Under the pieces are notes generated by a model, which did no database searches, was not told the origin of the DNA, and saw only the letters and a program-made list of their open reading frames with translations. A program made the position numbers and the translations under genes. Positions 7,235 to 29,200 of a stretch of 64,000 nt of DNA are shown here, piece by piece (position 1 is the first letter of the stretch; every line of letters begins with the position of its first letter). Source of the DNA: Fimbriimonas ginsengisoli Gsoil 348 (lineage in GTDB: Bacteria > Armatimonadota > Fimbriimonadia > Fimbriimonadales > Fimbriimonadaceae). The stretch spans positions 5,084,001-5,148,000 of the forward strand of contig NZ_CP007139.1 of NCBI RefSeq assembly GCF_000724625.1. The letters are read 5' to 3'.

Positions 7235-7241
7235 CAAGTGG

Positions 7242-22365: not shown

Positions 22366-25300
22366 TCAAAAATGTACCGGCTGACTATCGCCGATAAGCC
22401 GGAACCCGGCCCAGTAGTAGGGATGCTCTTTTCCGCGAGTCCGCATCACGTTCAGGGCGGCGCGCTGTAGGCTCAGGTCGCACGGCTTACCTGCCTTCAA
22501 CTGTCGGAACAAAGCGACGACCAGAGAGCGGGAGTCGTCTCCCGGGATGTCCCAGCCCGTCGCCACCACGCTTCGGCAACCCGCCGTGCGAAACGCCCAT
22601 GCCAGCCCCAGCAGTCCGTCGCCCCCCCGCATAGGCACCTACCCCGGTTTCGCAGGCAGACAAGACGGCCAGATCGGCCCGCAGTTGCATGGCCGCCACT
22701 TCCCTTGCCCGAAAAACCCCATCGTCTCCACCACCGGCGCCGATACGCAGGTACGAATCCATCGGATCTCGCAAAGCGAATGAGCCGTGGCACGAGAAGA
22801 GAAGGACGCGAAACAAAACCATGTCGCGTTTGGCCCAGTCTTCCCGTTCGGAGGGCCGCACAACTGCGCCCGCAATCTCCCGCCCGACCGCCCTGACCTC
22901 ATCCAATGCCCACTGGTCCATCGGCAGTTGCTGAGCAAACCCGGCGGCATACAGACCCTTCCGGGCTCGAGCCCCGCGCGCCTCCTCCAGAGAGCCCAGG
23001 GACGGTGCAAAGCTGATGGCGAAACGCTCCACAAGCCGCTTCCCACTACCGTCGATCAGCGCAGCGAACGGCACAACGTGAAACGCCGCATCCCCCGCCA
23101 CGACGATGCGGGAGAACCGATGAGGAGCGAGTAAACCCGCCGCCGCGAGGCGGCCCAACAGCATCGAGCCCAAGGCTTTCGCCCCTGCTCGCTCCGACGC
23201 TACCGACTTGCCACTGATGACCGGCGAGCTGTCGGGGCTCCAGTCGTTCATCGCGTGGGTAAGCCTGGCCGGGTCGAAGGGAATCTCGAACGCCTGCGGC
23301 GCGCCATCCGATGGAGAAGCGATCACCAGCGTGCTCCGCTCGTCCAGAAAGGCGTATTGCACAACCAGCGTTCGAGGATGCCGCCGGATGGCCCGCGCAA
23401 TGGGCTCGATTTGAGTGTGCCAGTCCCGACCGAGCGAATCCGGTTCCTTCAGCTTCTGTCCCAGATCGCGACCGCTGTCTAACATCGCCTGGGCTGCTCG
23501 CAAGTCCTTGGACCGCCGCCAGAGCGTCCATGCATAGCGGGCGTAAACGGTTCCCACGAGGTACTGCTGAGCGGAGCCGATGCTTTCAGGCCCTTGGTGA
23601 ACGGACAGTCTCTTCGTGAATAGGTCGAGCGACTTCTCGAAATGGTCGAGAGCGGAAGCCGTCTCCCCCAACTGCGCCTCTATCCACGCCAAGTTGCTCA
23701 ATGCAAGCGCTCGATAGATCCCCGGTCCTCGCAACTTTACGGCCTCATGGGCGGGACCGGAAGCTTCCTGCCAGCGGCGGCGAAAGAGAAGCGCGGAGAC
23801 CTCATTGTTCAGCTTCAGCAGCGACGAAACGCCGGGCACGGCGCCCGCGCCTCCATCTAGCGCCCTCGCCAAGCTGTTCAGATCGAACAACGCCGTCGCC
23901 GCAGAGCTCGGCGACTTTGCCCGCAATGCAAGCCGCTTTGCCTCGGCAAAGCTCTTCTTCGCATCGGAAACGTTGCCGCGTCGCAAGTGCAACATTCCCA
24001 GCGTCACCATTAGGTCGGCTTCCCCGCCAAGGTTCGGATGAGCCGCATAGATGCCACGGGCATCGATGATGTCCTCCTCGGCCCGCGCAAACTCTCCCAT
24101 TTCCAGTCGCGACGCCGCTCGTATATTCAACAGCGAGGCGACGGACAAGGGGTCGAGCTTGGCTCGAAGGGCCAGCGCCCGATCGCTGGCCGCTGCCGCG
24201 CTCTCAAATTCGGTAAGGTGGTAACGGGCGGCGGCAAGATTGTTCTGCGACGCGCCGAATTGGAAGTACCAGGATAGCGGCGAGCCCGAGTTCCCCTCCG
24301 GCAGTTCTCCCAGCACCTTCAGGTGCGCCTCGAACCCCGCTGCCGCCTCTTCGTAATTCCCTTCGTCCCACTCCACCATCGCGGCTTCAAAGTCGAGCAA
24401 TGCCTGCAGATTGGGCGTTTTGCATTCGCGGGTCGCCCTTTGGCCTTCCTGGGCAAGCGCGCGAGCCTCCTTGAAGCGGCCAAGCCGACGATAGGCCGAG
24501 CTACCCCAGTAGCAAGCGCCGGTGTAGCTAACGATGATCGAAGTCCGCTTGTCGCCCGTCTGCTTGTCGTCCCGAAAGAGGAGCCGGCCCGCCTCCAAGG
24601 TCGGCCCGATATACGGAAGCGCCGACTCCGAGTCGTCGAGTGAGACGAAGAATTGGATCGTCTCATATCCCGACCGCAGGATGGCGCTCGGCCGACGCAT
24701 GCGGCGCGACATGGCTACCGTGTCCCGCAACAACCGGGCCGCCTCTGGCCGGTTGGTTTCCTCTAGGCGAAGCGCCTGGTCGAACAGTTTCTGAACCGCC
24801 TCGAGCGTATCTCCCGGTCCAGCCGGCGGAACGACCTCCTGCGCCGATGTGCTCTGGGGGCTCGGCGCGCACTTGCCCGCTGTCCATTTCACGATCCTCA
24901 TGGGCCGGCCCGGCGCCGGTGCGCCGGCGAGCTGGTCGGGCACGATCGACAATTCTTCGCCGACTTTCGCCACCTTCCGCCACTCGTCGAGCCCCCGTCG
25001 AAGGTCGCGGACTTGGGGGCCCGTCACAGCGGCCAGAACCTTGTCCGCCTCATCCAAACGATCGACCTGGAACAGGTCGGCAGCCGCCAAGGCCGGTGCC
25101 CTGCGGATCAGCAGACGCGCCGTAGCAAGGGTTCTTTTTTCTTCGGGACTTAACACGTGAATCCGGAAAATCCGCCACTTACGCTCAGCCTCGGCGCGAA
25201 CAGAATTTGGCTCCAACGGCCTCACACCCACAGCGTACCGGCCGGGCGTCAGCTTGGCGACGGGCTCGAGGATCGCGCGTCCGCCTGCGGTCCGTTGCCG

Positions 25301-27279: not shown

Positions 27280-27844
27280 TTTCGACTGAGTCCTTGTTAA
27301 AAAAGGACTATAACTCGAAGTCGCATGGTTCTTCCTATCCCGAAAGAAGACGAGCAAAATCCGAGTACCCGACAAGGAAATGGACCGCCGGTCACTAGAC
27401 CGCCAAATTGAGCCGCCGCTGTCTTTGCCCGTTTCCGGGTCATAGGCTTGCGATCTCGAAGGCGCATAAGCCGCCCTTACCAAGGAGTCCCCCAGCGGCC
27501 GCTTCCATTCGAGCTTCCTCGCCCGACGCAAAAACATGCTGTGCCTCCCCGGCCTAATCCGCGCGAGCCTAGCGGTTCTACCGACGAAAGCCCCCTCGTA
27601 TGAAGCCCCGGACAATCCGCTTGACTGCGATAACCAAGGCCACCCAAATCCTCCGCACTGCGCCAAAACCACCTCCCGAAGGCGCATCGTCGCCTTCGAG
27701 TTTCTTAAGGCCGATGCTCCGGCGGTTATTACAGGTGATTTCGAGAATTATGCGAAAACGATTCGAGATCCTCAAGCAACCCTCATCGCAAGGATCGAAG
27801 TCGGTTTACCGTACCTTCCAAATTTCTCGTGCCACGATAGAGGT
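27280..27844. other. 565-bp divergent intergenic region
   Basis: Lies between the starts of the sigma-like gene and the metalloprotease. It must hold two promoters. Open frames cross it on both strands (27536 onward on plus, up to 27687 on minus) but they are extensions of the flanking genes or lack ribosome sites. It is long for this compact genome. I see no clear repeat or RNA motif in it. Confidence 0.5.
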
Positions 27845-29200
27845 ATGAATGCCGATCGCCTCGGTGTGGCGTTGCTTCTCGGAGCTCTTGTCACGGCCGC
27901 CCACGCGGACATCACCATCGACAACTTTGAACCGGGCGAGGTTGTCCGCCACCCGGTGGTGGTGCTCCGCGGGCATGCCGGCGGAGACTCGATCGCCGTC
28001 GGTCAGAGCTGGGCCAACGCCGGTCGGACCCCCGTGGTGAAGGGTGAATTCCGGGCCATCGTTGAATTGAGACCCGGCCCGAACATGATCGTTCTCCAGT
28101 CCGGTCGCGACACCATGAAATACCGGATCGACTACCGCCCCCCAACCTCGCCGATCAAGGTTTTAGCGATTTGGGTGCGGGCGAAGGATGAACCAGAGGA
28201 CGCTTATTACTATTCACCCACCGGCGACCGCCCCCGCGTGCGCGAAAAATTCGATACCGCCTTGAAAGCGATCCAATGCTTCTATGCCGAGGCGATGCAC
28301 GACGCCGGATACGGCAGAAAGACCTTTCCGCTCGAGCTCGATAAGAACGGCAAGGTCGTCGTCCACGTCCTCACCGTCCCCAAGACCGGCGCTGAAATGC
28401 GGGCGATGGAGAACAACGAGTCGTGGAGCTACATCTACGGCCTCCTCTCGAAGGAATTCCCGGAAAACGACACCCATTGGTGCGCCATGCTCGGCTTCTC
28501 TGGCTACGACCGAGGTACCAAGAAATCCCCCGGCCACTACGCCCTCGGCGGCGGCTCCCTCGGCGCTTTCGGCACCGGCAGCATGTCGCACTGGCCCGCC
28601 TCTCTAAAGGAGATCCAGAAGGTGATGACCGACGCCACCCTGCTGGATCCCAACCAAACGTTCGACGACAGCGCCTTCCGCCGGACCGTTTGGGCAAACG
28701 TCTCCACCGCCTGGGGTGCGATGGCGCACGAAATGGGCCACACCTTCGGCCTCCCCCACTCGAACGACCCGTTCAGCGTCATGTCCCGCGGTTTCGACTA
28801 CGTGAATCGAACCTTCGTGGTGGAAGAAGCGCCAAGGGCCGGGGTCGACCATTGGGTCGCCGTCAAGCCCGACGAGCACTCTCGATGGGACAAATACTCG
28901 GCCGCCAAACTCAACTGGAACCCCTATTTCCAACCCGACCTCGTCCGTGACACCACCTCCGCCGCCCCCTCGATCAGAGTCGACGGAGACCAGGTCGTCA
29001 TCACCGCGGCGTCTGGAATCCGGGTCTGGGGAGCCGACCGCGACGACACCACCCCAGTATTTAGCGAGTTCTTAAAGGACGCGCCCACCGAGGTGACAAC
29101 GTCACTCAAAGAGCTTCGGGAGAAGTTCAAGTCTCCTTACCGGATTACCGTCGTAGACACGGCGGGGCGCCAGGTTACAATCGACGAAAAAGGGCAATAA
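27845..29200 (+). CDS. Secreted zinc metalloprotease (HExxHxxGxxH)
   Basis: 451 residues from the ATG at 27845, which gives a signal peptide (MNADRLGVALLLGALVTAAHA). An N-terminal beta domain (ITIDNFEPGEVVRHPVVVLRGHAGG) of about 90 residues precedes the catalytic domain. The zinc site is AHEMGHTFGLPHS with the third ligand histidine in place, and a Met-turn SVMSRGF follows about 10 residues later, so this is a metzincin. A beta-sandwich tail follows. The layout resembles the putative Metallopeptidase_3 group related to yeast YIL108W. A lipoprotein gene starts 9 bp after its stop. Substrate unknown; the extended frame upstream of 27845 is non-coding. Confidence 0.9.
   Translation: MNADRLGVALLLGALVTAAHADITIDNFEPGEVVRHPVVVLRGHAGGDSIAVGQSWANAGRTPVVKGEFRAIVELRPGPNMIVLQSGRDTMKYRIDYRPPTSPIKVLAIWVRAKDEPEDAYYYSPTGDRPRVREKFDTALKAIQCFYAEAMHDAGYGRKTFPLELDKNGKVVVHVLTVPKTGAEMRAMENNESWSYIYGLLSKEFPENDTHWCAMLGFSGYDRGTKKSPGHYALGGGSLGAFGTGSMSHWPASLKEIQKVMTDATLLDPNQTFDDSAFRRTVWANVSTAWGAMAHEMGHTFGLPHSNDPFSVMSRGFDYVNRTFVVEEAPRAGVDHWVAVKPDEHSRWDKYSAAKLNWNPYFQPDLVRDTTSAAPSIRVDGDQVVITAASGIRVWGADRDDTTPVFSEFLKDAPTEVTTSLKELREKFKSPYRITVVDTAGRQVTIDEKGQ

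Follow-up and report, generated by a model that had tools for sequence, protein, structure and literature searches.

What breaks the reading frame of a large CHAT protease gene in Fimbriimonas ginsengisoli Gsoil 348? Its caspase-like domain is divided between two frames at a run of seven G, and the cause could lie in the organism, as a mutation, a variable tract or a slippery site, or in the counting of bases during sequencing. The gene was studied in the window (the whole stretch of 64,000 nucleotides that was analysed, whose coordinates are used below), in other parts of the Gsoil 348 genome and in genomes of its order.

The CHAT gene and its two frames

The open reading frame listing gives a minus-strand frame of 1218 aa at 26143-22487. 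The protein has an anti-sigma-like N-terminus (residues 23-125, where the NCBIfam score is under the cut-off of the model), TPR found by Pfam, a match to Pfam CHAT positions 4-222 (E 5e-24, 85.7 bits against a cut-off of 24), and, at the end, about 45 residues that show no homology. The conserved ending of the domain is found in the +1 frame (minus strand, 22629-22366, stop TGA), which matches CHAT positions 207-289 (E 5e-17). Both matches are far above chance level. When the frames are joined across the G run, a single match to positions 4-289 results, with 162.3 bits versus 85.7 for the zero frame alone. The gene belongs to the CHAT family PF12770: the zero-frame match and the read-through match both exceed the curated cut-off, and the His and Cys motifs are present. 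The dyad residues, His1119 in SCHGS and Cys1164 in SACET, both lie upstream of the break, as the earlier note had stated. Judged by its domains, the protein probably works as a caspase/separase-like protease to which an anti-sigma-like module is fused.

On the plus strand the run reads as seven C (22622-22628), corresponding to codons 1171-1173 in the minus-strand context TAT GCG GGG GGG CGA CGG. A hexamer coding model trained on the Gsoil 348 genome also changes frame here: the zero frame scores +18 upstream of the break and the +1 frame +27 downstream, the other frames of the same strand being negative. As a TAG (22639-22641) closes the +1 frame upstream, the switch is confined to about 20 nt that include the run. 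Between that TAG at 22641 and the zero-frame stop at 22487, about 150 nt are open in both frames. The break exists in the deposited sequence, and sequence, Pfam and coding model agree on the site given in the earlier note.

One biological explanation is that the G run truly gained a base not long ago, either in nature or during culture; this +1 mutation would have inactivated the gene and left a young pseudogene whose zero-frame product is missing the final quarter of the domain. G runs are indeed mutable in real genomes. Against a pseudogene, no second disabling lesion was found in the 3.7 kb (1218 codons) of the gene, and the coding signal is still intact past the break.

The gene upstream, minus strand 27279-26140, shares 4 nt (ATGA) with the CHAT gene and is a probable operon partner. 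It has no match in Pfam or NCBIfam, belongs to no recognised family and has almost no relatives among 60 genomes. Inspection by eye, together with the anti-sigma-like N-terminus of the neighboring CHAT protein, suggests that it may be a sigma-like factor that has diverged. Divergent from the CHAT operon, a metallopeptidase (PF12044, E 4e-65) is found at 27536-29200.

The protein ending and the CHAT genes of the order

Which of the two tails is the real one was judged from BLOSUM62 local scores against 16 CHAT proteins from the order and from the Gsoil 348 genome. The start of the +1-frame tail scores 41-113, and the zero-frame tail at equal length 17-29. All 16 proteins are matched by the former and none by the latter. 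In the read-through protein, the spacing from LSAC to LLGL is 12 residues, identical to that of the best-scoring relative (L008). By these alignments the genuine ending of the protein is the one predicted in the +1 frame. The earlier observation that the zero frame leaves homology and stops at 22487, with the CHAT ending in the other frame to 22366, is thus borne out by both Pfam and the tail scores. The suggestion made with it, that a full product and one with a scrambled end both exist, finds no support.

A search for CHAT across the order (113 genomes) returned 125 matches, two of which are the pieces of the split Gsoil 348 gene. None of the other matches is split at the same place. Two further CHAT genes, both in fragmentary genomes, are divided between frames on a single contig, but their splits are at profile positions of about 185 (G059:C55 about 4300, L281) and 48 (G058:C10 about 13839, L282). 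A few more matches are partial. Within 60 nt after the motif, the longest G run is 2-5 in 27 motif hits in the loci of relatives, some of these hits being chance repeats within one protein. No close ortholog of the gene was found among 60 relatives, which suggests a dispensable accessory gene and so favors a mutation, and searching the genome contigs for related loci did not yield a close relative of the CHAT locus.

These comparisons bear directly on programmed slippage, in which the ribosome or polymerase slips at G7 to give complete and truncated proteins in a set ratio. The earlier note had named a seven-G run conserved in relatives with the same split as the sign of slippage; no same-place split was found among the order-wide CHAT matches, and the run was not found in the loci of relatives that were read. 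A G run at the frame junction and the overlap of the frames are what slippage would use. However, a +1 shift is required, whereas the tandem G GGG GGG would favor -1; moreover, the codon that follows, CGA, is a common one (18% of Arg codons), the site is without a stop, and the 27 other scorable runs of this kind in the genome are read in frame (below). Slippage is the least credible of the explanations considered.

Homopolymer runs and broken genes in the Gsoil 348 assembly

If tract length were used as a switch in this organism, long tracts should be over-represented in the genome. The opposite is seen: in 1.26 Mb, under a first-order model, there are 22 G/C runs of length seven where 191 are expected (about ninefold depletion), and 4 of length eight where 54 are expected. 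This depletion argues against phase (contingency) switching, in which the length of the G tract would differ between cells and turn the CHAT protein on or off. Seven G is also short for a contingency tract, and near the site the runs of relatives reach only 2-5. The location of the tract within the gene of a possible cell-death protease is what makes such switching attractive, but we hold it to be highly improbable. The broader proposition, that the seven G are real and that slippage or a change in tract length yields controlled complete and inactive forms of a membrane-bound TPR-CHAT protease, would cover either mechanism and is very unlikely.

Among the 28 G/C7 runs that could be scored, the one in the CHAT gene is the sole exception: the other 27 keep one frame across the run. 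A systematic 454 error at G7 would be expected to leave many broken runs and was rejected; error at G7 is occasional. The in-frame runs fit a true mutation at the CHAT site and count against a base-count error. One other run (L220 12168), within a gene for an oxidoreductase-like protein, appeared shifted at first look and is actually in frame. Wider scans for frame breaks were less informative. A single-strand Viterbi frameshift finder made 125 calls, mostly false, and was discarded; most of what the stricter scans for frame switches picked up was plain gene overlap, for example in an antitoxin/toxin-like pair and between two neighboring glycosyltransferases. A homopolymer of at least 5 is found at 36 of 193 switches (19%) compared to a background of 13%, a mild enrichment. 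Separately, the chromosome has 56 copies of a REP-like family whose arm is CGTGGCACGGGCGG; these often form paired hairpins, and one of them is at window position 7238.

The history of the assembly is pertinent here. The genome (5,231,762 bp, present as one contig) was obtained by Roche GS FLX pyrosequencing at about 22x and assembled with Newbler and Phrap; Sanger reads (PCR/ABI patches) were used for gaps and weak spots only, and the accuracy is given as 99.994% (PMC4072686), which amounts to about 310 residual errors. There were no short reads to correct the pyrosequencing. For another bacterium, a 20x GSFLX assembly contained one error per 8.4 kb, mainly indels in or around homopolymers (PMC2625371). 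A direct comparison on a test set put the share of genes touched by 454 homopolymer errors at 2.1-2.8%; such errors rise with run length and are commoner in A/T than in G/C runs (PMC3277595).

A break of the same kind is present in a core gene, found in a 464-kb sample of the chromosome. In scpA, expected to be intact, one extra base at a T5 run (L080 15363-15367 = G000:C1 3965363-3965367) divides the gene, with its N-part ending at 3965364 and its C-part starting at 3965369, four bases being between them. Both parts were located in 18 congeners, and in every one of these they are three bases apart in a single open frame; the halves match ScpA models weakly. A homopolymer break by an extra base is therefore present in this assembly, and the split of scpA is a probable assembly error, to judge from the congeners. 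It also weakens the case for a true mutation in the CHAT gene. We infer that the process behind the scpA break produced the CHAT break as well.

In the only clear murC, the first ~80 codons are in a different frame from the remainder of the gene. The break is at a perfect GC-rich palindrome with arms GTGGCACGGGCGG and a central base (L239 689-728; G000:C1 about 5190689-5190728), and in 19 congeners the matching part belongs to a frame that stays open for 766-883 aa. The palindrome could be either a real insertion or bases miscounted in a hairpin. Since the site of this break is a palindromic repeat rather than a homopolymer, murC offers only indirect support for 454 error.

Taken together, the frame break of the CHAT gene is most likely a miscounted G run in the 454-derived consensus of an intact gene. 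The chromosome would then carry one G fewer than the deposited sequence at 22622-22628, and encode a single intact membrane-anchored TPR-CHAT protein ending at 22366. The best support for this comes from the 454-only assembly, the scpA break, and the well-conserved frame on both sides of a homopolymer across which the CHAT domain is complete. Besides the in-frame G/C7 runs, two points count against it: 454 errors favor A/T runs (PMC3277595), and low-quality regions were reportedly resequenced by Sanger (PMC4072686). We consider a recent mutation unlikely. Of the four options left by the earlier note, assembly error is thus the best supported and mutation a possible one, and phase switching and programmed slippage are unsupported. 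The weights given to the four explanations are judgements and were not computed.

The main value of the case is caution. Gsoil 348 is the reference genome of its class, is 454-derived and has a frame break even in scpA, so claims of pseudogenes or recoding made from it need reads. The frameshift is probably an ordinary sequencing artefact in an intact gene; were the tract genuine and its length variable, a bacterial caspase-like protein would be under the control of a switch.

Comparison with known systems

The CHAT break resembles the published 454 indels (PMC2625371, PMC3277595) in that a one-base error in homopolymer length leaves a gene in two frames, and those cases share the platform and a similar coverage with Gsoil 348. 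They differ in preferring A/T runs, where the CHAT break is at a G run. Phase-variable poly-G contingency genes likewise have a G tract in coding sequence, but the Gsoil 348 tract is short, not expanded genome-wide and absent from relatives. With the known CHAT proteases of PF12770 (TPR-CHAT/Csx29 of Craspase; separase-like), the read-through protein has in common the His and Cys motifs and CHAT positions 4-289, and the CHAT chains of Craspase match it weakly in sequence (E about 0.1). Unlike them, the Gsoil 348 protein has an anti-sigma-like N-terminus and a frame that is broken as deposited.
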